A DNA stretch of 64,000 nt from Alligator mississippiensis. Lineage: Eukaryota; Chordata; Crocodylia; Alligatoridae. The position numbers were made by a program, and so were the translations under genes. The DNA lies in contig NC_081824.1 in NCBI RefSeq assembly GCF_030867095.1, positions 146,597,433 through 146,661,432 on the forward strand. The letters run 5' to 3'. Below are positions 5,426 through 64,000 of the stretch, one piece after another (position 1 is the stretch's first letter; each line of letters opens with the position of its first letter). The notes below the pieces were generated by a model that worked only from the letters and a program-made list of their open reading frames with translations, was not told where the DNA came from and searched no databases.

Positions 5426-6905
5426 TGTCACAGCGGGGTCCTTCAGGAGGGCCGTGATCTCCTCGAGGTCCCTCGCTCCGTGTCAAGGCCGGCCCAAGGC
5501 ACCCTCTTATTCTCGCCCGCCACGTCTTGCTGCTAAATATAAGGTTGGGAGGCTGCCTATGACTTCCTGGGCACGGCTACTCGGGACCTCTGTCCCCATG
5601 TGTTCCTGGACCCCCCGGGGGTCTCCCGGTGTAATGGGTGCTCCCCAGGCACCCTAGCCTTATGGGCTATGCGTGGCTCCTACCACCCCTAATACCACGC
5701 CCCAAGCCTCGCTGATGTGAAAGACTTTGGTGTGTCTGCACGCCCGCTTCCCAGGCCCTTCTTCTATAATCTAGCCCACTCTTGGGCCTTCCCTACAATA
5801 GGCTAGTCCCCTCTGGGACATCCTCTTGATCCACCGGTCTTTTAGGCCCACCGCACCACCACCCTCTCTGGTACAGGCTCACTGCGCTGCTACTCCCCGT
5901 CCTCTCGGGGACAACCGCAGCACCTTGCCCTTCTCTGGGTTTTCCGCGGTGCTAGCCTGTTACCGGGCTCCTCAATATTGCCCCTCTCGGGCTCCTCAGT
6001 ACCGCCCCTCCCTGGGGCTGGGGTCTATGCACCCCGCAAGTGACGCCCTTGCTGGCATCTGCTGCACCCGTCCTGGGCTCCCTAATATGGCGCTCCCCCT
6101 CTTTGGGGCTCACCACGCCCACCTTGGGCTCCCTGATAAAAATCGCCCCTCTCTCTGGGGCTGGGGTCTACGCACCCCGCACACAACCCGGGGTCTATGT
6201 CCCCCATCTACAACCTACGGGTTGTGCCCGCAACCCACTGGTTGCGCTCCTCGCCGCCAGTTGTGCCCTCACTGGCGTGCAAGCTGCGCCTTCACTGGCG
6301 CTAGGGCACCCCACACTCTCTGGGGTCCCTATGAGGATAATGCACCTTCTTGGCGCAAGACTGCGCCCTCACTGGCGCTAGGGCACCCCACCCCTATGGG
6401 GGTCCCTATGAGGTCAATGCGCCCTCTTGGCGCTAGGGCACCCCACGCTCTCTGGGGTCCCTATGAGGCCTCCTCCAACCCCTACAGCCTCACCCAAGCC
6501 TCCGGTGTAATAAACAGAGCCAAACAAACTCAAAGTACAAGCCTCTAGGCTATAACATAACTACAAGCTGCATGGCCATAACTTAGTATCGTGGCTCGAG
6601 CCTCCAGGGCTATCATGAGCTATACTTGCAAATCAGGCTTCTTCCCATATCTTGGCTGAGAGAGCTCCTGCCTCTCTGGCTGCTGGCAGAGAACTGCCAG
6701 CCTGGCCTCAGCCCTGGGCTTTATAAGGGCCAGGCCCTGCCCCCTACAGGCAGCTGGCTCTGCTTGGTTGCTCCGGCAACCCGCAGCTGCGCTCGCTACC
6801 CGGGCAACCCTCAGCTGGGCTCGTTATGTCAGGCCAGGGCTCGCTCACTCGCTCCCTGGCAGTTTCTCCTCTCTAGGAGCAGGGGCACCGGGGTGCCCTG
6901 CGACA
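5426..6905. mobile_element. Solo LTR, 1480 bp, with 5-bp target-site duplication
   Basis: The element starts TGTCACAGCGGGGT and ends CCGGGGTGCCCTGCGACA, so it has TG...CA termini with short inverted matching. It is flanked on both sides by GGCTG (5421-5425 and 6906-6910), a 5-bp duplication typical of several LTR retroelement groups. It is CpG-rich and unlike its AT-rich surroundings. A TATA-like TTTATAAGG lies at about 6719 and AATAAA at about 6508. Removing it rejoins an older CR1 (4740-5425 and 6911-7090), which supports the boundaries. The open frames inside (5826-6548, 6040-6381) look like chance products of high GC content. Confidence 0.85.
6297..6468 (+). repeat. Short tandem repeats inside the solo LTR
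   Basis: Three imperfect units begin GGCGCTAGGGCACCCCA at about 6297, 6374 and 6429. Each is followed by a variant of GGGGTCCCTATGAGG. Units are 77 and 55 bp apart. The repeats lie in the part of the LTR upstream of the TATA-like box, where U3 enhancer-type repeats would be expected if the element is in plus orientation. Confidence 0.7.
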
Positions 6906-12100: not shown

Positions 12101-14740
12101 TTGGTGGTTCTGAAAACCTCTTACCAGATTCTGAAACCTTTACTTAAGCCAAGTGGCACCTTCTTCTTTATTAAGTGCTATTCAGCATGAATGCTTCAGA
12201 GAGAAATGCATGGGAAGGCACAGGATAGAATGCATAAGAAAGAAGAAAGAAACAGGAGGGGAAAAACAAAAGCAGAAGGGAAAACAAGCAATCTATTGAT
12301 TTGTAAGACTTTTTCCAAATGGATTGCAAACTTATGCCACAACAATTCAGCAAGAAATATGCCATTATGTGAATCTCAGGATCCTAGAAATAAGTAAAAC
12401 TGAACACACGCCAAAGCAGTGGCAATATTTAAAAGTAAAGATCATTTAAACACGTGTTTAATACACTCAGTATCATTTCAAGGGGTAATCTAAGTTTTTA
12501 GTTTTCAGGGGGGTTCAATTTTATGCCTTTAAGGAAAAATCCTATGGAATGTAGTAAGAACGAAACCAACTGGGCCCAACAGAAATTATTTCATGCAACA
12601 GAGAATTATAACCCCATTACACATTTGTAGGAATTGGTTTTAAAATTCTATAGAAAGACCATCACTCTATTAAATTCTGTCAGAGTTTTTCCAGGGCTAC
12701 GTGCAAAAGTGCTTATATCAAATATTCCAGCATCTTCCTGAACAAAGAAAAAATGACCATTTTATGTCCATTAACTTGCACTCACTTGATTGATAATAGA
12801 GAAGGGACACCTTCCTCTTTCTTTGGGCTTACTGGTATTTGGAAAAATACCCCCTGCAATCCCTCCAACAGGGTTTAGTGATGCAAGGAAGGAGACTGCT
12901 AACACCTCAGCATTCTGTGATATTGGAAGGAAGACCCCTCTTGCCCTGAATAAGTGCCTGGAAAAATCTGCTCCCCTTCTGCTTTTTCCATGTGATTCAC
13001 TGGAGCTAATTCTTGCTCCATTGCTGGGAAAGCCAGGACATCTCCCCTGGCAGTGTTTAAAACTTTTATAAACTGGAAAGTATTTTGCTGGCTTGGATTT
13101 TGCTTGCATAGAATCTATGAAAGATGCTGCTGTTATTGTTGGGGTGTTAGTTGAGTGAAGCTATGTTATTCATTATTATTCTCAGGGTTTAATTGGGTTA
13201 TTTTTAAAGTTTTACAATTCACTTCTTAATAATGCTTAATAGCATTTTCTGCTATTAATTTTGCATTTTTTGTTGTACCTCTTTGTTTCATTCTGGTATT
13301 TGGATGAACTTTGTGGGTCACATTATTTCAACCTGGCTTCCAAGGCTTTGCTTCAGTCTGGGTGAAAAGGCTAGTTTATAATTATTTAAATGCCTGCAAG
13401 ATGGAAAGAGAAGGGTGGTTTTAATGCCAGGATAAAGGATGCTTGTCTAGGCAGAGACTGGTTACACTTCTTAACAACTGAATTTTATCACTGTTGAAAT
13501 TTGAGGAAGCCATCTATGCAAGAACAGAACATTTCAGAAATGATATTTCAAATGAAACCAGCCTAAAAAGGTTGCAATGAAACCATTCTGTGATAAGAGC
13601 CCATCTGCTTTCAATGTTAATCCAGTGACACGTCATTTTACTCTTTATAAAATAATGAATTGGATCTCCTTGAATATTTACCAGTTGAAATACTGGCTTG
13701 AAACTGCAACACTTGTGGGGGTTGTATGAGGTATTTTCTAGTCTCTTTCCAATTTGTATAAAAATCACTTGTAAAACAACTGAAAATGGATATAAAGTTA
13801 AGATCTCAAAGCTGTTGCCATTCAGTGCTCTTAAGAATTTGGCAACAAGTCATTCACTAACTTACTTGGCTCCATAAACATTAATTCACTATGGAAGGAT
13901 TTAAATAAAGAGGTTGGTAGAAATGGGAGATTGAGTCAAGAATGAATTCCTATGCTGCTGAAGAAATATAACTTGAGTAAACTGAATGTGATTTTTCATA
14001 TGCTTGAATTTGAGTTTAAGTTATTGTTTGTAGAAAGGATTTATAGACTTAGGAATTTGTAGGTAGAAATATAAGTAAGCACTGCTTTGGGTAAGACTAT
14101 CTATTGGAATAGCTTTTGTTTCAGAGATATGCTCTCCTAGTTAACTAAATGGAAATAGAGTTGGGCAAATAATTTGGGGAGGGAGGGAGGGGGATTTCCC
14201 TGAGAGTTCTGCCCATTTTTAGAAGCAACCCCAAAGCAGTTTCTCTTGAAAGTCACGAAACACTTGGTTATCATTTGTTTTCATGTTTTTATGCATCTGC
14301 CCACTTACACTGCTATTAAAAAGCCAATATTTCCCTGAAGGTACCACAGAGTAGTATAAGTATGAAGTACCATGCGTATTTCTTAGTCTAGGCAAGAAGA
14401 AATGACTGGAAATTGAAGCTCAGAAAAATCCAAACAGGAAATAGGATACAAATTAAATAGTGGCAGCAATAAATGACTGAAATGGAAACTTCACAACATG
14501 AAGAAGAAGCCAAACTCAATGGCGACATATATTTTCTAAGTCTATGCAAGAAACACATCATTTACAGAGACCAGCTACATTCTTCTATAATCAGTCCAAC
14601 ATTCCCCTCCCCACCACACACCTGTCTCAGATTTATTGTCTCTTACCCTTCTGATTCTCACTGCCACACATTTGCATTTTCACTGATCTGTATTTTGCTT
14701 ATTGGCTTCTAGGAGAGAACACAATTCACCAGCAGATTCT
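9111..14740. other. No recognised gene
   Basis: About 5.6 kb of mostly AT-rich sequence. I see only short, unconvincing open frames (for example 12790-13071 and its antisense 12771-13109) and no repeat family I can name. A small hairpin-like pair lies around 11055-11095 (AGCAGGTTTCTATC ... CCACCTGGTTTCTTCTCAGGTGGG). Ancient repeats may be present but are beyond recognition by eye. Confidence 0.4.
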
Positions 14741-15656: not shown

Positions 15657-17396
15657 GTCAGACTAAGAAAATTGTAACAGTCCCTTCCAGCCTTAAAATA
15701 AACAAAGTGATGAATTAGGGTCTGATCAGCCTAACATTGAATCAATGGGAGTTTAGTCAAAAGGAGCAAGCCCTCTAGAATATGATTTTGTAATGATTAT
15801 CATTAAGCACTTGGCACTTGTAATGAGTCTATTAGCAAAAGATCAGATTCAACAGTGCATAACCCCTATTTGATTGCAAAAGATTTGCACTAGTATAAAA
15901 CTGGCAAAATAATATGTTGCATCATGCCCATAAAACTAAGGTAACGTAAACATAGAACTCTGTTAAGAAGCCCCAAACACTCTCCGTTCCTTTATTTTAA
16001 GACAATTAGGTCTTCTTTGAAAAGGAAATTAAGGTGGGGAATCTGTGTAATAGTTATCCAACATCCAGGAGATGCTTCTGCCATCAGTTTTGTAGGGAAG
16101 TCTGTGTGAAGAGTGGCTATACATTTTCTGGCTATGACCTGTTGTGCAAGTGCCAAAATACCATGGAAATACCATAAGAATAGCTATCCCCAAAACAAAA
16201 CACTCTGGAAAGCTCCCAAACAAGCCTGTTCTTATAAATCCATAAAAACCTAGGTAAATTACCCTGATTACCCAGGCTGTGTTCCTAAATAATAGTATTT
16301 CCCCTTGGCTGAGTCAGATGCATTGTTGACTGCCTTGCCTCACAAATTCTTCATACAGGCCACTGCATAACCAACAGATGGATGTAACACTTGGTTACTA
16401 CAAACCAGTGCCAGATTTAAACCAATGATCTAGTAGTGAAAAGTTCTTTGTTCCATTACCAATCCCTTGAGCCATCCAATTCTCCTCCCCTTGCCGCCAA
16501 TGCTCCATATTGATTAATTGTTCCTGCATTGTGTTCCACACGTTTCTGTCAGACACATGGTCACAATATGTGACTTGTATTGGCAGCAGTGATGTATTTT
16601 GGGAATAGCACATGTATGCAGAACTTTTATAAAGGTCACTTATTGTAAACCATGTTATAGAAATGTGTTTGTAAAAACAACAGGAAGAAGAAAAAAGAGA
16701 CTTCAATTTGTATTTTTAAAACATGACATTTGCAAAAGGCTTGGATCTCAGTTTTGTGACTCAGATCTCCATGCTCAAAGAAAAAAAATTGGAGTAGGAA
16801 ATGAGGAATGAGTTTTCTAGACAAGTTTGAAAGTAACCAAACTAATGCCAATCTGTTTGGCAGAGATCTTTAAAGTTGTTTAAATCAAATGAATATGCCT
16901 TTTCAAGACATGCATAGCAAAACATAGACCATGGGCAAATGGACAAGAACATTTGCAAGTCTATACATGGACAAAGGACTCATTGAATCAGCTGGACTCC
17001 TGCAGACGTGTAAACAGATGCTGCTAAGCAAGCTTTACTTTCAGAATACATAGTATTACTACTGAGCAATTTGGTGCAAGTCATGGGCATATTGCCATTA
17101 TATTACATTATGTTGCATCAAATATATGAAACTTTTTGCATTCATTTCAGTATAGGCTTACAGCATGTTGAAATTAATATTATATCTTCTAGATGTGGCA
17201 CTAGCCTGGGGTAGGGTGATAGATCTGTTAAAGGGTCCTTAGACATCTCCAGATGGCACCATCACTCTGCCACTGTGCCAACAGCTGCCCCCAGTTGACA
17301 AAAACAATTAAAAAACCCCTAATTATTTGGGTTGGGGTGTCAGCGGTGACCAAATATGGTGGTAGCTACGTCATTCTCCTTTTCTCTCATATTAAA
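15657..17396. other. No recognised gene
   Basis: Unassigned AT-rich sequence. The open frames at 16398-16706 and 16599-16811 overlap on opposite strands and carry no family motif I know. Confidence 0.4.
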
Positions 17397-19830
17397 GGGA
17401 TCACAGAAACCTGGTGGGATTCATCCCACAACTGGGTGGTAAATGTTAGGGGCTACAGACTATACAGGCAGGACAGAACGGGGAGGAAAGGCGGGGGTGT
17501 GGCACTCAACGTCAAAGAGCAATACACGTCCTCAACTAACAGGATGGCGTCAGAGGAGGGGCAGGCTGAAGTGCTCTGGGTCAAAATACAGGGGGGGTCA
17601 TGGGGAAAGGGACTTAACAGTGGGGGTCTACTACAGACCACCCACCCAAGGGGAAGAGCTGGACCGCGAATTCTTGGGTCAGCTTGTGGAGGCAGTTAAG
17701 GCAAGGGATGTAGTCATCAGGGGTGATCTAAATTACCCAGACATCTGCTGGGAGGAGCAGTCAGCCAGGTTGGACCACTCATGAAGGTTCCTTGCTAAGA
17801 TACAGGACCTCCACTTAACCCAGGAGGTGCACAGTCCCACCAGGGGGGATGCCCTGCTAGACCTGATCCTGGCCACAGTGGATGACCTGGTGAGGGGACT
17901 CCAGGTTCTTGACCACCTGGGTGACAGTGATCATCTCTATCACCAAAGAGGAGTATACCTCCATCGCTCGGGTCTGTAGGGGGCTATTAGGAAAGCTAAG
18001 GCAGATATGGAACTAGGGCTAACATCAAGGATCAAGGACAACAAAAAGTCCATTTTTAAATACATAGGGAGTATGAAGAAGGCATCAGGTAATGTGGGGC
18101 CCCTGCAGGATATGCTAGGCAATCTGGTGGTTGCACCAAAGGAAAAGGCAGACCTTTTTAACAATTTCTTTGCCTCCATTTTTTTGTGCAGGAACAGGGA
18201 CTCCCCACTGAGATTCAGGATGGACTCAGGAGAGACCCCGCTAGGGCTAGGGTCAGGGAGGACTGAGTTAGGGAACTTTTGGAGGGGCTGGATGTATTCA
18301 AGTCAGCAGGTCCAGATGCTCTCCACCCCAGGGTGCTGAGGGAATTGGCAGGGGTTATTGTGTGGCCCCTGGCATGGCTTTGGCCTGGTGCCAGATAACT
18401 GGAAGAAGGCCAATGTGAACCCTATTTTCAAAAAAGGGAGGAGGGAGGACCTGGGCAACTATAGGCCCGTTAGTCTTACTTCGATCCTGGGGAAGCTCTT
18501 TGAGAAGATTATCCAGGAGCACATCTATGAAGGACCAGCAGGGGGGATGATGCTCAAGGGCAACCAGCATGGGTTCATTAGGGCAGGTCCTGTCAGACCA
18601 ACCTGATTGCCTTCTATGATCAGGTCACAAAATCAGATGCAGGTGTCGCAGTGGATATAGTCTTACTGGACTTCAGGAAGGCCTTTGACACTGTCACCCA
18701 CCACAGTTTCATTAAAAAGCTAGGCAGCTATGGCTTTGATGCCTACACAGTCAGATAGGTCACAAATTGGCTGAGGGGCTGCACCCAGAGAGTGGTAGTG
18801 GATGGGTCATATTAAACCTGGAGGGATGTGGGCAGTGGGGTCCCCCAGGGCTTTTTCCTCAGGCCCACACTGTTCAATTTCTTTATTAGCGACTTGGACG
18901 AGGGGGTGTAAAGTACCCTGTTCAAATTCGCTGGTGACACCAAGATTTGGAGCGAGGTGGGCACACTAGAAGGGAGGGACAGGATACAACTGGACCTGGA
19001 CAGGTTACAGGGGTGGGCAAATGAGAATATGATGGGATTCAATGCTGACAACTGCAGGGTACTGCACTTGGGCAGTAAGAACCAGCAGCATACCTATAGA
19101 TTGGAGAACTCCCTTCTCGAAAGCACAGTGTCAGAAAGAGATATTGGAGTCATTATCGATTCTAAAATGAACATGGGCCGCCAATGTGAGGACACAGTCA
19201 GTAAGGCTAACCGCACCTTGTCATGCATCCACAGATGCATCACAAGTAGGGCCAAGTAGGTGATCCTCCCCGTCTATGCGACACTGGTCAGGCCACAGTT
19301 GGAGTACTGCATCCAGTTCTGGGCGCTGCACTTTAGGAGGGATGTGGCCAGCATTGAGAGGGTCCAGAGCAGGGCCACTCACATGATCCAGGGATAGCAG
19401 GGCAGACCCTACGAGGAGAGGCTACAGGACCTGAACCTGTTCAGCCTTCACAAGAGAAGACTGAGAGGGGACCTGGTGGCTGTCTATAAACTTACCAGGG
19501 GGCCCAGCAGGGTTTGGGAGAGACCCTGTTCCCCCAAGCACCTCCCAGAGTTATAAGGAATAACGGCCATAAGTTGTTTGAAAGTAGGTTCAGGCTGGAC
19601 ATTAGAAGGCACTAATTCACAGTCAAGGCAGCTAGGATCTGGAACCAACTTCCAAGGGAAGTGGTGCTGGCTCCTATTTTGGGGGTCTTTAAAAGGAGCC
19701 TTGATAATTACCTAGATGGGGTCATATGAGCCCAGTATTCTCTCTTGCCCAGGGCAGGGGGTCAGACTTGAAGATCTACTGAGGTCCCTCCGAACCCTAC
19801 ATCTATGAATCAATGAATCTATGAATCTAT
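17397..19830 (+). pseudogene. CR1 LINE ORF2 pseudogene, 5' truncated
   Basis: The copy starts mid-endonuclease at 'KGITETWWDSSHNW' and runs to a 3' end of repeated AATCTATG at about 19830. Recognisable parts in order are: endonuclease motifs ETWWD and GGGVAL; then, one frame over, YRPPTQGEELD and GDLNYPDICWEE; then LGDSDH at about 17920. About 300 bp is then missing before 'TKEEYTSIARVCR', so the inter-domain region is deleted. The RT part shows [51 protein letters not shown] and VLHLG. The catalytic box reads FAGD (18927-18938) instead of FADD, removing one metal-binding aspartate. Several stops and frameshifts confirm it is dead. Family function when intact: target-primed reverse transcription of its own RNA. 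Confidence 0.9.
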
Positions 19831-32982: not shown

Positions 32983-34824
32983 CATAGATGGTAGGGCTGT
33001 AAGGGACCTCAAAGATCATCAAGTCCAGCCCCCTGCCCCAGGGGCAGGAAGTCAACTGGAGTCAAAGGATCCCAGCAAGGTAAGCATCCAAACTCTTCTT
33101 GAATGAGTCCAGAGTAGGTACCTGCACCACTTCTGGAGGGAGTCTATTCCAGGTCTTGGGGGCTCGGACAGTAAAGATATATTTCCTTATGTCCAGCCTC
33201 AGATGGTCTTGGAGGAGTTTATGACCGTTGGTTCTTGTTTTTCCTTGGGGTGCTCTGGTGAACAGATGTTCTCGCGAGTCCTAATGTACACCCCTTATAT
33301 ACTTACAAGCAGCCACCAGGTCCTCCATGAGCCTGTGCTTTTCCAGGTTGAAGAGTCCCATGGATCTCAGCCTCTCATCATAAGGTCTAGTCTCCTGCCC
33401 TCTGATCATGCACGTGGATCTCCTCTGGACTCTCTCAAGCTTCTTGTCATCCTTCTTGAATTGTGGAGCCCAGAACTGGATGCAGCACTCCAGCTGCGGC
33501 CTCACCAAGGCCAAGTACAGCGGGAGGATGACATCCTGAGATTTACTTGAGAAGCATCTATGGATGAAAGCCAGAGTATTGTTTGCTTTGCCAGCTGCGA
33601 CATCGCATTGGTGGCTCATGTTCATCTTGTGGTCAATTATGACCCCCAAGTCTCTTTCAGCTGTGGTGCTAGCAAGCGTAGCACTGCCAAACCTATAAGC
33701 ATGCTGCGGGTTTTTTCTCCTGAGATGGAGTACCTTACATTTAACTATACTGAACATCATCAGGTTTGTATCTGCCCACTTACTAAGTTTATCCAGGTCA
33801 ACTTTGATCACTATCCTGTCCTGCAGTGAGGACACTGTGCCCCAAAGTTTACTGTCATCGGTGAACTTAGCCAGTGCACTTCTGACACCAATATCCACAT
33901 CATTGATAAAGATGTTAAAAAGAACCGGCCCAAGGACAGAGCCTTGGGGTGCCACTGGTCACAGGGCACCATGATGATTTGCTACTATCGACCACTACTC
34001 TCTGGGTCCAACCTTGGAGCCAATACCCAGCCATCAGACTGTGGTGAAGCTGAGGCCACAGTTGGCCAATTTTTCCATGAGGAGGTTATGGGACACCAGA
34101 ACAAAAGCTTTTTTAAAGTCCAGATAGATGACGTCAATTTCTTCTCCCTTATTCAGGTGATATGTCACCTGGTCATAGAAGGAGATGAGATTGGTCAGGC
34201 AAGACCTACCCACAACAAACCCATGCTGGCTATCCCTCAGGATGTTGTCTTCAGCCAGCTTATTGAGAAATTATCAAGGTGACGCTTCTGGATAAGTTGG
34301 CCAAAGGCAATATCCTGAGGGATAGCCAGCATGGGTTTGTCGCAAGTACCACATTAGCCCTCTTCCAATCTTCAGATACCTCACCTGAGCACCACGAATA
34401 CTTCAATATCCTCTCCATTGTCTGTGCTATGATGCCAGCCAGTTTCTTTAGCACTTCTGGGTACATTTTTTCTGGGCTAGCTGATTTGTGGGTATCCAGC
34501 CTCTCAAGGTGTTTCCGCACAAGATCTACACCAACGATGGGCATATGTACACCCTTTCCCTGCATCTTGGTAGGTGGGGTGATCCACTGATTGGTGGAAG
34601 ACGGACACAGAGTAATTGTTAAGGAGATTGACTTTTTCCTGGATGCCAGTTATCAGCTTCCCCATTGATTTAGCAAGTGTCTAATGTTGCCCTTGTTATT
34701 TTTCTGACTTTCCATGTATCTGAAGAAAGACTTATTGTCCTTGATTCCTGTAGCCAGTCTGAGTTCAGTTTCAGCCTTGGCTTTCCTAGTTCACTCCCTA
34801 CAGGTACTGGCCAGTGCTGAACAC
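32983..34824 (-). pseudogene. CR1 copy B, RT half (3' part)
   Basis: This is the 3' half of a long CR1 whose 5' half lies at 41009-42560, beyond an inserted hAT. The minus strand shows VGVDLVRKHLERLDTHKSASPEKMYPEVLKKLAGIIAQTMERILKYSWCSGEVSEDWKRANVV, then a local rearrangement at 34198-34345. Next come PQGSVLGPVLFNIFINDVDIGVRSALAKFTDDSKLWG, with the catalytic box FTDD at 33854-33865, and VKCKVLHLRRKNPQHAYRFG to RRSTCMIRGQETRPYDERLRSMGLFNLEKHRLMEDLVAACKYI. The C-terminus and 3' UTR run to 32983. The catalytic aspartates remain but the RT fingers region is scrambled, so it is inactive. Its subfamily differs from the 31078 copy (for example HLRRKNPQHAYRFGSATLAS). Confidence 0.9.
34198..34345. repeat. 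Local inverted duplication inside CR1 copy B
   Basis: The minus strand at about 34270-34198 reads NKLAEDNILRDSQHGFVVG. The plus strand at about 34285-34345 reads DKLAKGNILRDSQHGFVAS. The same roughly 60-bp RT segment is therefore present twice in opposite orientation, only a few bases apart. The second copy replaces the expected PIFKKG...NYRPISLTS segment. Confidence 0.8.
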
Positions 34825-40815: not shown

Positions 40816-41008
40816 TGCATCTGAATCAGGCAAGATATGACAAAGTTATAGGCATTTTAGTGAAACAGCGTCAAAACTCCAAAACAGATTAGGCCAAATC
40901 GAAACACAACAATGATCTGAAACACTGAAATGAATCACTGTCCCTCTGAAACATCTGAATCCAAAACCAAATCAAAACATAGCCATTTAGCATAGCCCTA
41001 CTGAATAC

Positions 41009-42560
41009 TCCTCCTTAGTGGTGTTTTCCATCTTCTAAAAACTTCTCTTTTTAGATACAAGAGGTCCATGAGTTCCCTATTGAGCCAAGGGGGTCGCTCA
41101 GCCATTTTGCTACTATTTTTTAGTAGGGGCTGAAATGGACTTCCATGTGCTTCAAGGATCACATCCTTAAGGAGTAACCACTCATCATGGACTCCCCTCC
41201 CTGTCAGATTGTGTTGTGGCCTCTCAGGGCCTTGACAACTAGCTTCCTGAGCTTGTGAAAGTCAGTTTTCTTAAAGTCAAGGACTTCTGCATTCCTGACT
41301 GACTTGCCAGCTTTGCAGTGGATAGAGAAAGTGATCAACTCATGGTCACTTTCTCCCAGCTTCCTTTTGATTTTCAGGACATTCACTAAATCTTCCCCTT
41401 TAGCTAGTACCAGGCCCACCAGCACCTTACCTCTTGTTGGCCCATAGACTTCCTGAGATAAGTAGAGCTCAACAATGCATGTGAGGAAGCTTTGCTACCA
41501 ATCAGATCTGACTGAGTGATCTTCCCATGAGATGTCAGGGTAGTTGAAGTGCAGAGTGTGTGCAGCTTCTGCCATCTCCCTAGCAAATTCATGGTCAAGC
41601 TCTTGCTCCTGATTAGGAGGTCTGTAGTAGACTCCTACTATTATATTCCCTTCACCATGTTCCCCCCATATTCTAACCCAGACAGTTTCAAGTCACTCTT
41701 CTTGGGTGCCAACCTCCACTTGTAGGGAAGTGTACTGTTCCTTCACATAGAGAGCTACACCCCCACCCTTTCTTGCAAACGATCTCTCCTGTATAAGGTA
41801 TAGCCATCTATACCTGTGGTCTAGTCATAGGTCTCCGCTATCCCTATGAGATCGTTGTCATTTCTGTTTAGCAGAAGGGCCAGTTCCTCCTGTTTGTTCC
41901 CCAGGCTCCTGGCATTTGTGTACAGGCAAGTGAGCCTGCTATCAGAGGCCCTAGGCTTCCCTGTACTCCTAGAAGAGCTCTGTCCCTCGACTGGGGTAGG
42001 ACTGAGTTTCCTTGTGTAGCCTGACCTGCTGATTTTGTGGTTGACACTTGGTGGGCTTGCACTGGTGGTTATCCACCCATCCCCTGGCAAACTTAGTTTA
42101 CAGCCCGGTCAAGCAGGTCAGACATTCTGGCTGAGAAGAGCTTCTTCCCCATTCAAGTGAGGTGGAGGCTGTTGCTTCCAAACAAATTGATGCCTTCTTC
42201 TGAAGTGTGGACTGTAGTCATAGAACCTGAAGCTTTCACAATGGCACCACCACTTCGGTCTTCTGTTTACTTCTTCGATTCGTCTCTCCCTTTGATTTGT
42301 ATGCCCATGACCCATAACCAGAAGGATTGAGGAGAAAACCACCTGAGCCCCCAATCCTCTGAGCCCTGCTCCCAGAGTCTTGTAGTCATTTACAACCCAG
42401 CTGGGATTGCTCCGAGCTGTGTCATCCAATTTGTTGGGACAATCTTGCATCTGCTTGCTGGGGATAATACGAAACTACAAGTGTGGTGTCCCTGTTGGGA
42501 CAATCACTCTCAAGTGTTCAGGCAGATGTAGAACACTCAGAAAGTAAATGCCCCTTAATC
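41009..42560 (-). pseudogene. CR1 copy B, ORF1 end and endonuclease (5' part)
   Basis: This is minus-strand continuation of 32983-34824 on the other side of the hAT. The ORF1 end at 42450-42118 reads NDTARSNPSWVVNDYKTLGAGLRGLGAQVVFSSILLVMGHG, the SGNH esterase GTND block with GT lost. One frame over it closes with DLLDRAVN and a stop at 42093-42095. ORF2 then reads without interruption from about 42097 into LTCLYTNARSLGNKQEELALLLNRNDNDLIGIAETYD. Further down come VGVYYRPPNQE, FNYPDISWEDHS, TRGKVLVGLVLAKGEDLVNVLKIKRKLGESDHELITFSIHCKAGKSVRNAEVLDFKKTDFHKLRKLV. It is inactivated by stops (for example after AETYD) and small indels. The 5' limit is uncertain. Confidence 0.9.
42055..42102 (-). promoter_or_regulatory. 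Decayed -1 frameshift site of CR1 copy B
   Basis: The minus strand reads T GTA AAC TAA at 42102-42093, equivalent to the T TTA AAC TAA of the intact copy with one T to G change. The downstream 6-bp arms GTTTGC (42092-42087) and GCAAGC (42060-42055) can pair (one G-U), enclosing a second perfect stem GGTGG/CCACC. The -1 frame from CTA onward is open into the endonuclease. Confidence 0.6.
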
Positions 42561-60271: not shown

Positions 60272-60424
60272 TTACCGAAACTCCATCCTTGGGGGTTTTC
60301 AAACCCTGGCTAGACAAAGCTTTGGCTGGGATGATCTAGTTGGGGTTGGTCCTGCTTTGAGCAGGGGGTTGGACTAAATTACCTCCTGAGGTCCCTTCCA
60401 ACCCTAACTTTTTATAATTCTATA
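60272..60424 (+). pseudogene. CR1 3' tail inserted in the LINE fossil
   Basis: AAACTCCATCCTTGGGGG ... GGCTGGGATGATCTAGTTGG ... GAGCAGGGGGTTGGACTAAATTACC ... TTATAATTCTAT is a CR1 3' end ending in an ATTCTAT tail. It splits the LINE fossil between CWAGH and DSRLPKQ, which are adjacent in the intact protein. Confidence 0.85.
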
Positions 60425-60704
60425 TGGCCGGCCCAACAAAGTTGATGTTGGATGACCATCACCTCGATGCTTGTGGTGTTTGCTTGCGAGAGGATGCTGG
60501 TGTTGATGCATCTGTTTTCCCACTGGATTCGAAGGATCTTCTGCAGGCAGCATTGATGGTATTTCTCCAGTGACTTGAGATGTCTCCTGTACATTGTCCA
60601 CATCTCAGCTCTGTACAGTAAAGTAGGGATCAGGACTGCCTGATAAACCATGAGCTTGGTTTCAAACCTGATGTCACAATCTTTGAACACCCGTTTCCTC
60701 AGGC
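60425..60704 (-). pseudogene. Non-CR1 LINE fossil, upstream part
   Basis: The minus strand decodes KRVFKDCDIRFETKLMVYQAVLIPTLLYRAEMWTMYRRHLKSLEKYHQCCLQKILRIQWENRCINTSILSQANTTSIEVMVIQHQLCWAGHI. This is the RT thumb/connection region with the conserved LLYGxExWT and RxLxxLExxHxRCLRxILxIxW patterns. It ends where the full-length CR1 begins. Confidence 0.8.
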
Positions 60705-60705
60705 A

Positions 60706-61343
60706 TCCCAGGTCAAGCCCCGCCCAGGCCCCTACTTGGCCCAGCCCCCCAGGGAGAGAGAGAGAGAGAGAGAGAGAAGGGGGGGTACTCACCAGCCCCC
60801 CTCCAGTAAGGCAGGGTCCCCCAAATCCCGGGCAGGGCCCCCGTATTTGCCTTAAGAGCAGCTTCCTCGACGGCAGGCCCACTGCGCATGCGCGCAGTTT
60901 AAAAGGGCCCGCCGACCGGGAAAAAGCCCAGTTAGACGCGGGAGTGGCGAGAGACGCGCGGGTGAAAGCTCGCTGCGCCCCCGCTCCCCCGAAACCCCCC
61001 AGAAACCCTCCAGCAGCCGCGGAGCCCCCCGCTGACCCCCAGCGCAGCCGGGGTAAGCGGGGCCCGTGGAGAGAAGGGGCTAACCCCCTTAGTGTGTGTG
61101 TGGGAGGCGGCAGCTGAGTGGAGCCGGGCCGGGTCAAGCCCCGCCCAGGCCCCTACTTCGCCCAGCCCCCCAGGGAGCCATGCGACCGGAGCCACGCGAA
61201 CAGGCTGCACAAACAGGCGCGCTTCTCTGCCGGCGCGTGAGTTAGTGCGGAGTTCGCGCGGGAGGGCATGCGGGAGGGCGCCAGACCCTGCCTGCGCACC
61301 CCCCAGGGTAGACAGTCCCAGCCGTAGCCAGCCTACCTGAGGC
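60706..61343 (+). promoter_or_regulatory. CR1 5' untranslated region and internal promoter
   Basis: A CpG-rich block begins sharply after the LINE fossil and ends at the ORF1 start. It holds an (AG)n tract at about 60755-60777, a perfect NRF1-type site (60883-60894), a TATA-like TTTAAAAGG at about 60898, and a GGGTAAGC donor-like motif at about 61050. A 45-bp block (TCAAGCCCCGCCCAGGCCCC...) occurs twice, at about 60713-60757 and 61135-61179, with one mismatch. No homology extends beyond it. CR1-type LINEs are thought to transcribe from internal 5' promoters. Which part is element and which is captured flank is not decided. Confidence 0.65.
60883..60894 (+). promoter_or_regulatory. NRF1-type binding site
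   Basis: TGCGCATGCGCG fits the NRF1 consensus YGCGCAYGCGCR at all positions. It is just upstream of a TATA-like TTTAAAAGG and about 450 bp before ORF1. Confidence 0.6.
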
Positions 61344-62441
61344 ATGACACGGATGGGCACGCGCCGCACCCCGAGGGTCCCCTCAGGCTCCGCGGCCCCC
61401 CCCTCTGGCACCTCAGAGACGGCCACCCAGACGGAGCCCCTGGTTCCAGGCTCCACGCAGACGGAGCCCCTGGCTCTCGGCTGCGGGGGCTGCCTGTCCC
61501 TTTTTCAGGCTCTGGGGCCTGGGAGCATGGCGACCTCCCCTTGCGGGGTCTGCTCCCTTTTGGGGTCTCTGGCACGCCAGCTGGAGGAGCTCCAGGCCAC
61601 AGTCCACAGACTGCGTGCCATCAGGGACTGCGAGCAGGAGATAGACTCCTACTGCCAGGCCCTTCTCCCCCAGGAGGCAGAGGGTAGATCACAGTCTCCC
61701 TCCACGCCAGAGGAGGACTCTGGGACCTCCTGCTGTGTCCAGCCAGGGGCATGGACCAAGGTGGTCAAGGGCCCTAAGGCCCGCCGCACCAAGGCCCCTC
61801 CCCCAACAGAACTGAGCAACAGGTATGCACCTCTTGCTGCCCCAGCAGAGCCTGCTGAGTTGCCGGCCCCCACAGGCAACATGGGCCTAACTGCAACTCC
61901 CGCCCCTGCTCTCCCCAAGACAAAACGTAAGGTGTTTGTTGTGGGAGACTCCCTCCTGAGGGGGACGGAGGGGCCAATCTGCCACCCTGACCCCTTAGCC
62001 CGGCACGTCTGCTGCTTCCCAGGGGCCCGCATCCGGGACATTGCGGAGAGGATCCCCAAGCTCCTCAAACCCACAGACCACTATCCCATGCTCCTTATTC
62101 ATGTGGGCACCAATGACACGGCTCGGAGCACTCCCAGCCAGGTCATGAGGCGCTACAGGGATTTCGGAGCGGGGCTTAAGGGTCTGGGGGCACAGGTGGT
62201 GTTCTTGTCGATCCTCCCAGTCTCAGGCTATGGACTGAGAAGGGACAGGAGGATCTATGTGGTCAACCAAAGACTGCAGCGCTGGTGTCGTCAGGAAGGC
62301 TTTGGCTTTCATGACCACAGCCCGCTCTTTGGCGAGAGAGGCAGCGAGCTGCTGGGAAGAGATGATCTCCACCTCTCTCCCCTAGGGAGGAGGCTCTTCT
62401 CAGCCAGACTGGCTGACCTGCTCCACCGGGATTTAAACTAA
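61344..62441 (+). CDS. CR1 LINE ORF1 protein with SGNH esterase domain
   Basis: An intact 365-residue frame from ATG to TAA. Residues 47-70 carry two C-x2-C pairs (CGGC, CGVC), the zinc-finger-like motif of CR1 ORF1. A predicted coiled coil follows (about 72-100, LLGSLARQLEELQATVHRLRAI), suited to oligomerisation. A basic, proline-rich linker runs 140-195. The C-terminal SGNH hydrolase/esterase domain shows block I GDS (201-203), block II glycine in PGARI (227), block III HVGTND (253-258) and block V DDLH (340-343). All putative catalytic residues (S203, N257, D340, H343) are therefore present. In the family this protein binds element RNA in the RNP; the ester substrate is unknown. ORF1 ends in a slippery heptamer plus stop. 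No stops or shifts are visible, so this is a young copy. A second Met at residue 4 could also serve. Confidence 0.93.
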   Translation: MTRMGTRRTPRVPSGSAAPPSGTSETATQTEPLVPGSTQTEPLALGCGGCLSLFQALGPGSMATSPCGVCSLLGSLARQLEELQATVHRLRAIRDCEQEIDSYCQALLPQEAEGRSQSPSTPEEDSGTSCCVQPGAWTKVVKGPKARRTKAPPPTELSNRYAPLAAPAEPAELPAPTGNMGLTATPAPALPKTKRKVFVVGDSLLRGTEGPICHPDPLARHVCCFPGARIRDIAERIPKLLKPTDHYPMLLIHVGTNDTARSTPSQVMRRYRDFGAGLKGLGAQVVFLSILPVSGYGLRRDRRIYVVNQRLQRWCRQEGFGFHDHSPLFGERGSELLGRDDLHLSPLGRRLFSARLADLLHRDLN

Positions 62442-64000
62442 GCCCGCTGGGGGACGGGGGGACGACCGCCACTGCTGGCCCGCTGAACAATCCTTGCAAA
62501 GTCAGCGGATCATGGCACTCAAGGGAGCCCGCCCCAGCCCCAGCCCTGGTAAAATCTGTGGGCAAGGAAGGAGTCCCCCAGGGGGCACTTGCCTGCCTGT
62601 ACACAAATGCCAGGAGCTTGGGGAATAAGCAGGAGGAGCTCATCCTCCTGCTCAGTGCAAACAATTACGATGTCATAGGGATCACGGAGACCTGGTGGGA
62701 CTCCACCCATGACTGGACCACAGGGATAGATGGCTATACCCTGTACAGGAGGGATCGTGTAGAGAAAAGGGGCGGGGGTGTAGCTCTCTATGTTAAGGAA
62801 AGCTACGCGTCCCTGCAAGCCGATATTGGCGACCAGGGTGGACGGCTGGAGACCCTCTGGGTTAAAATCCGTGGGGAACACGGCACAGGGGACACAATGG
62901 TGGGAGTCTATTACAGACCTCCCACCCAAAGTCCTGAGCTAGACCAGGAGTTTGCCCAGGAACTGGCTGAGGCAGCTTGCTCCAGGACCATGGTTGTCAT
63001 GGGTGAGTTCAATTACCCAGACATCTCGTGGGAGGATCGCTCAGCAAAATCTGAGCGGTCGCAGAGCTTCCTCTCGTGCGTGGATGACCTCTACCTGACT
63101 CAAGAAGTCTATGGGCCAACGAGAGGCAAAGCGCTGCTCGACCTGGTGCTGGCTACTGGGGAGGACCTAGTCGGCGACCTAGTGATCGATGGGAAGCTGG
63201 GTGACAGCGACCACGAGCTGATCACCTTCACCATCCGCCGAAAAGCTGGCAAGTCAGTCAGCAACACGCAAGTCCTTGACTTCAGGAAAGCCGACTTTGA
63301 CAAGCTCAGGAGGCTTGTCAGTGAGGCCCTAAGGGACTGTGACCGCAGGGAGAGGGGAGTTCAAGAAGAGTGGTTGCTCCTCAAGGGAGCGATCCTCAAT
63401 GCACAAACTAAGTCTATTCCATCTCGGAGGAAAGGCAGCAAGAGGGCACAGCAGCCCCCCTGGCTCTCCAGGGACCTAGCAGACCTCCTGAGGCTAAAAA
63501 GAAAGGCCTATAAAGGATGGAGGATGGGAGTCACCTCCAAGGAGGATTATTCTGCACTGGTCCGGTCCTGTAGGGAGCAGACCAGGAAAGCCAAGGCTGC
63601 AACTGAACTCCAGCTAGCTTTGAGCATCAAGGACAATAAAAAGTCCTTTTTCAGATATGTGGGGATCCGGAGGAAAAGCAGGGGCAACGTTGGACCCCTG
63701 CTGAACCAGATGGGGCAACTGACAACTGACGCCCAGGAAAAAGCCAACCTATTAAATAGGTACTTTGCGTCGGTCTTTCATCAGCCCCATGGGACGCCTG
63801 TGCCTGCTACAGGGCCGGGAAGTCCGGGTGAGGGTGATCCCCTGCCCTCCATTAATGCTGACTTTGTGAAGGAACATCTTGAGAAGCTGGATACCTTCAA
63901 GTCAGCCAGCCCTGACAATCTTCACCCCAGGGTACTCAAGGAGCTGGCGAGCATCATAGCCCAGCCTCTAGCGCGGATCTTTGAAAACTCTTGGCGCTCT
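62417..64000 (+). CDS. CR1 LINE ORF2 (endonuclease-RT), truncated by window end
   Basis: A frame open from just after a stop at 62414-62416 to the last base of the window (528 codons). Its first in-frame ATG is at 62897, well inside the endonuclease. The APE-like endonuclease shows LYTNARSLGNKQEE (N at 62606), ITETWWD (E at 62687), GGGVALYVKE, VGVYYRPPTQ, GEFNYPDISWED (63002-63013) and LGDSDHELITF (D and H at 63209-63214). The usual GDFN catalytic aspartate is glutamate here. The connector follows (VLDFRKADFDKLRRLV, PPWLSRDLADLLRLKRKAY, IKDNKKSFFRYVG, NVGPLLNQMGQL, LEKLDTFKSASPDNLHPRVLKELASIIA). The window stops at FENSWRS, just before RT motif 1, so RT integrity cannot be judged. The intact protein nicks target DNA and primes reverse transcription. 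The start is uncertain; frameshift from ORF1 is likely. Confidence 0.9.
62432..62479 (+). promoter_or_regulatory. Candidate -1 ribosomal frameshift signal between CR1 ORFs
   Basis: T TTA AAC lies at 62432-62438 in the ORF1 frame, followed at once by the ORF1 stop TAA (62439-62441). A -1 slip continues as CTA AGC CCG, the ORF2 frame. Downstream, GCCCGC (62442-62447) can pair with GCTGGC (62474-62479) with one mismatch. An inner GGGGG/CCGCC stem has one G-G mismatch, and G runs lie between. The 3-nt spacer before the stem is shorter than the usual 5-9 nt, unless the basal pairs open. Confidence 0.6.

Follow-up and report, generated by a model that had tools for sequence, protein, structure and literature searches.

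In viral −1 ribosomal frameshifting, the replication enzymes are encoded downstream in the −1 frame, and the LINE CR1 shows a similar layout. A LINE such as CR1 differs from the viral systems in having no LTRs and, to our knowledge, no protease that would cut a fusion protein. The translation of the second ORF in two-ORF LINEs is a standing puzzle, for which L1 and SART1 have been explained by unusual initiation. Reviews explain the synthesis of ORF2 in LINE-1 and SART1 by unusual initiation (PMC2881922 and PMC5009743), which counts against frameshifting in CR1. PMC5009743 also considers mammalian LINE ORF2 more likely to be made by unusual initiation, ranks U_UUA_AAC with the heptamers on which mammalian ribosomes shift most readily, and describes the gag of HeT-A as said to need frameshifting. 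Natural stops right behind slip sites are reported for Rous sarcoma virus (RSV) and barley yellow dwarf virus (BYDV) in the accessible text of PMC4373837, along with a stop inserted behind the HIV-1 slip site that cut shifting by ∼70%; this last result also counts against shifting in CR1.

The window, a 64-kb stretch of Alligator mississippiensis DNA, contains a CR1 copy that combines several of these features. Its heptamer is identical to the U_UUA_AAC of IBV, and a stop lies directly 3′ of the slip site, as in RSV and BYDV. As in L1 and SART1, translation of the second of its two ORFs calls for a nonstandard route, but in contrast to their unconventional initiation and UAAUG coupling, the ORFs of the window copy overlap in the −1 relation at a slippery heptamer, and the stop has no AUG close by. 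HeT-A, the Drosophila telomeric non-LTR element, is likewise said to need frameshifting; there the shift occurs within gag expression in an element encoding no reverse transcriptase (RT), whereas a shift in CR1 would join ORF1 to the endonuclease-RT. Also among the closest known systems are vertebrate CR1 subgroup 7 elements with ORF1 type IV (PMC4120745, in the part available), which share the esterase ORF1 and the APE-type endonuclease ORF2.

ORF1 extends on the plus strand from 61341 to 62441, stop to stop, with its first ATG at 61344. It encodes a GDSL/SGNH esterase (residues 216 to 351; Pfam PF13472, E value of 2.8e-11) and ends in HRDLN followed by TAA; the nearest protein among the matches listed also comes from A. 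mississippiensis, with 93% identity. Direct reading of its 3′ end at 62430-62441 gives GAT TTA AAC TAA, which agrees base for base with the original observation of an in-phase T TTA AAC followed immediately by TAA. The heptamer TTTAAAC occupies 62432-62438, split as T|TTA|AAC in the ORF1 phase, and the stop at 62439-62441 adjoins its 3′ end. The ORF2 frame (plus strand), comprising the linker, the endonuclease, and the rest, opens at 62417 in the −1 frame relative to ORF1, as had been proposed and as frame reading confirms; it stays open across the heptamer and runs to 64000, past the window end. Pfam places the endonuclease (PF03372 and PF14529) in residues 70 to 266 of this frame. No RT match to Pfam is found in the part of ORF2 inside the window; PF00078 is common among the homologues (best 120 of 175 matches). 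The earliest ATG of the ORF2 frame, at 62897, is codon 161 and lies ∼455 nucleotides past the ORF1 stop, inside the endonuclease, in line with the earlier reading. Since the domain spans residues 70 to 266, initiation at codon 161 would leave out the first part of the endonuclease. No AUG lies on or beside the ORF1 stop, where SART1-type UAAUG coupling has it. Initiation at an AUG past the ORF1 stop is thus rejected for the window copy, with no AUG ahead of the endonuclease, and stop codon readthrough is rejected because ORF2 lies outside frame 0.

Upstream of ORF1, a 49-base direct repeat is present at 60708-60756 and 61129-61177, with 96% identity and a distance of 421 bases; it may be a repeated 5′ unit. 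An open frame on the minus strand spans 60412-61152, and its portion at 60412-60705, just upstream of the CR1 5′ end, resembles on inspection the C-terminal portion of a different LINE reverse transcriptase.

We propose, at a probability of about two in three, that the CR1 ORF1-ORF2 junction is a tandem-slippage −1 programmed ribosomal frameshift site. Ribosomes translating ORF1 would arrive at U UUA AAC, and the majority would stop at the adjoining UAA to give ORF1p. A minority would slip back by one base onto UUU AAA, continue with CUA AGC, and cross the AUG-less linker into the endonuclease and RT, yielding an ORF1-ORF2 fusion at a low level. Such a low-level fusion, which would put the esterase and coiled-coil module on ORF2p, would follow from the mechanism. 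The phase of the heptamer, the −1 relation, the lack of an AUG in the window copy, and the conservation of both frames in relatives at the protein level are observed, and we infer the slippage, its efficiency, its stimulator, and the role of the fusion. For the window copy, −1 frameshifting is the best-supported route to ORF2, and for its lineage it probably is as well.

TTTAAAC by itself is common, and the weight of the argument rests on the relatives and not on the window copy alone. The plus strand of the 64 kb contains five instances against ∼6.6 expected from base composition; the other four, at 12445, 16416, 36037, and 40030, are not at a junction found by BLAST. Within ORF1, the heptamer is the sole in-phase instance of X XXY YYZ (with Y being A or T). 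ORF1 has a GC content of 63% and uses TTA for only 2 of its 43 leucines. At the codon frequencies of ORF1, T TTA AAC would be the spelling of a D-L-N end ∼1% of the time.

Conservation was judged from predicted proteins in both frames, and not from the DNA of relatives. No DNA encoding a relative was obtained from four scans of viral contigs (1, 8, 14, and 172 matching stretches) or two scans of genome contigs (11 and 40 matching stretches). For the 0 frame, 54 ORF1 homologues were taken from the best ∼8,000 candidates scored; within this set, 32 end in Leu-Asn (31 ALN and 1 ELN) and 21 are without this end. Turtles, one swift, one tegu, a dart-poison frog, an alligator, and two more sources account for the 32, of which 29 share the C terminus RRALN. 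The Caretta caretta model P0009 contains RRALN followed by KVHQG beyond the ORF1 end, presumably because the annotation overruns this end via a predicted splice, while P0031 is homologous up to SRLA and then diverges. P0034 ends in RELN, and the base preceding its Leu codon therefore cannot be T.

For the −1 frame, ∼8,000 candidates were scored in the search for ORF2 homologues, and the best 120 of 175 matches were used. The endonuclease-start motif is found in 67 of 184 proteins collected from the matches listed, and 41 of these reach at least 25 residues upstream of it. Fourteen of the 41, selected by the FKL string itself, carry F-K-L at the junction (15 junctions): one duck, six stork, one ibis (two junctions), three godwit, one wall lizard, and two alligator models. 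On inspection, the other 27 either have a downstream start or form fusions with other sequence. Where the 0 frame reads L-N and the −1 frame reads F-K, TTTAAAC and TTTAAAT are the only possible spellings. Ten of 12 pairings of an ORF1 end with an ORF2 model are solvable, and every solution is one of these two heptamers; because the pairings cross species, they demonstrate compatibility and not the actual sequence. Storks P0077 and P0106 and ibis P0058 are solved over 8 residues with the swift ORF1 end. The lizard model P0071 is solvable with the tegu end over 8 residues and fails further out, and the remaining solvable pairings are the window with itself and five over 3 to 4 residues, with an ALN end assumed for two of the five. 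Neither P0162 nor P0099 can be reconciled with the swift end. In all 11 family groups, the residue after F-K-L permits a stop directly behind the heptamer, compared to 67 to 70% of residues generally.

These two-frame protein comparisons suggest that the heptamer is conserved in crocodilians, birds, and a lizard. Checked in this indirect way, the expected conservation of the heptamer, its phase, and the −1 relation is borne out for these three groups, which supports −1 frameshifting; in turtle and frog relatives, the agreement is limited to the 0 frame. Exceptions to the conservation are P0034, the two inconsistent pairings, and a second copy in the window, which carries TGTAAAC.

This older copy (copy 2) lies at 41003-42425 on the minus strand and is 68% identical to the main copy. 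Its junction at 42102 reads GCT GTA AAC TAA, one change from GCT TTA AAC TAA, and its heptamer is not slippery as it stands. The −1 frame of copy 2 remains open without a Met for 60 codons up to the endonuclease, for which approximate dinucleotide shuffling gives a probability of ∼0.04; the corresponding value for the 60 −1-frame codons of the main copy is ∼0.17. The linkers of the two copies are 53 and 57 residues long, a difference of whole codons despite several indels. These features fit translation of the copy 2 linker in the −1 frame at a time when the element was still active. Additional CR1-like fragments, among them an open RT-like piece and pieces matching ORF2, lie at 33281-33958 (minus strand), 34422-34821 (minus strand), and 17396-18349 (plus strand). 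At 5802-6548 (plus strand), Pro-rich words recur in an open frame of 248 codons, which is probably repeat derived.

Downstream of the slip site, a G-rich block on the plus strand at 62449-62461 encodes Gly-Asp-Gly in the ORF2 frame. Relatives carry Gly-Glu-Gly in its place at a fixed spacing after F-K-L: 16 of 17 junctions have a Gly exactly three codons past F-K-L (C-K-L in copy 2), and 14 of the 17 show the motif Gly-Glu/Asp-Gly. Seven nucleotides past the heptamer, GCUGGGG at 62446-62452 forms the 5′ arm of a candidate stimulatory stem. Two candidate 3′ arms, CCCCAGC at 62532-62538 and 62538-62544, can each form a 7-bp GC stem with it (all arms on the plus strand). This 5′ arm is paired with a probability of ∼1 in two of five folding contexts and shows weaker pairing or other partners in the rest. 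Folding z-scores against shuffled sequences are +0.99, −0.43, +0.91, +0.37, and −0.35, and an equally stable stem occurs at 6% of 281 control starts. One long-stem register from the 5′ arm was rejected, since its pairs have probabilities between 0 and 0.18; the pairing of the arm occurs in different registers. In contrast to viral −1 sites, no pseudoknot is found near the junction in a scan for simple pseudoknots with perfect stems, and the five Rfam matches at the junction (up to an E value of 5) all score well under the gathering scores. GC-rich RNA ∼7 nucleotides downstream may act as a stimulator, with a candidate stem that is not statistically special, and the G-rich block may act as RNA or as protein.

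In the strongest competing explanation, termination-reinitiation or internal initiation past the ORF1 stop would produce ORF2, starting at an AUG where one is present and at a near-cognate codon elsewhere. Overall we consider this unlikely, with a standing that differs between lineages. ORF1-dependent translation of ORF2 is reported for SART1 and L1 in the accessible part of PMC2881922, and in the window copy a CUG at 62447-62449 sits 5 nucleotides past the stop. This codon, the third after F-K-L and a Leu (CTG) in the window, is Val in Podarcis and Met in the duck model P0094, and the equivalent position is the start Met in P0174 (Zootoca) and also in P0176. Lys, Pro, Asn, or Ser takes its place in the junctions of stork, ibis, godwit, alligator, and copy 2, which speaks against a start at this position. 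The linkers themselves are similarly divided. At least one Met is present in 12 of 17, located 8 to 73 residues ahead of the endonuclease motif, and in 10 of the 17 a Met stands 8, 12, or 13 residues ahead of it, so that an AUG start there would still yield a whole endonuclease. The turtle models P0062 to P0064 also begin at Mets upstream of the endonuclease. The claim that reinitiation at an AUG could not provide a whole endonuclease holds for the window copy but may fail for these Met-containing linkers and turtle models, so that AUG starts are plausible outside crocodilians. An AUG ahead of the endonuclease in other families had been named as grounds for refuting frameshifting, and these Mets partly supply it. 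No linker Met is found in the remaining five junctions, namely, those of both window copies, the two alligator families P0114 and P0127, and the second ibis junction of P0058. On this distribution, reinitiation competes seriously with slippage in birds and lizards and only weakly for the crocodilian families. The Oxyura jamaicensis model P0163 starts with MKGGEG and, if the spacing is kept, may place an AUG directly on the ORF1 stop in a UAAUG-like arrangement; slippage may have given way to stop-start coupling in this family. Mixed use, with slippage in some CR1 families and AUG initiation in others, is possible. Reinitiation leaves the TTTAAA upstream of the stop, kept in both frames, unexplained.

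That sequence could also be a by-product, if the Leu-Asn C terminus were kept for the function of the ORF1 protein and ORF2 were made by an unrelated route. The conservation of adjacent ORF1 residues, with RRALN as the prevailing end, agrees with this explanation, which we nevertheless regard as improbable: protein constraint cannot fix TTA among six Leu codons, nor the preceding T, in an ORF of 63% GC, while F-K in the −1 frame needs both in the bird, lizard, and crocodilian pairings. Nor would it account for the spacing to the Gly, which is fixed in all but one of the 17 junctions. A joining of the frames by transcriptional slippage, splicing, or editing is hardly credible, as UUUAAAC contains no long homopolymer and the splices that P0031 and P0149 appear to show near the junction look like automatic predictions with differing joints.

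The literature searched contains no description of ribosomal frameshifting in CR1; the founding CR1 papers were outside its reach, and priority is thus uncertain. The available parts of PMC1925062, PMC2734521, PMC4255032, PMC4316615, PMC2612034, and PMC4120745 do not describe it, the word "frameshift" is absent from the main text of PMC4120745 as available, and CR1 goes unmentioned in that of PMC5009743. Frameshifting itself is known; on the best-supported reading, CR1 would use it in a class of element where it is not the accepted mechanism.

According to PMC4316615, no transposed element is more abundant than CR1 in birds, crocodilians, turtles, and snakes. A wider proposal, offered tentatively and a step short of what we would favor, is that a tetrapod-wide CR1 lineage depends mainly or entirely on an ORF1-ORF2 fusion for its endonuclease-RT, produced through a coronavirus-type −1 shift at U UUA AAC followed by a stop, with a G-rich element at a fixed distance. 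This would represent a gag-pol strategy in a LINE, predating the split of crocodilians, birds, and lizards. If frameshifting at the junction is true, a short RNA signal would set the dosage of ORF2p, and ORF2p would carry the ORF1 esterase module in cis. An intact heptamer would then be usable to screen for potentially active CR1 copies.
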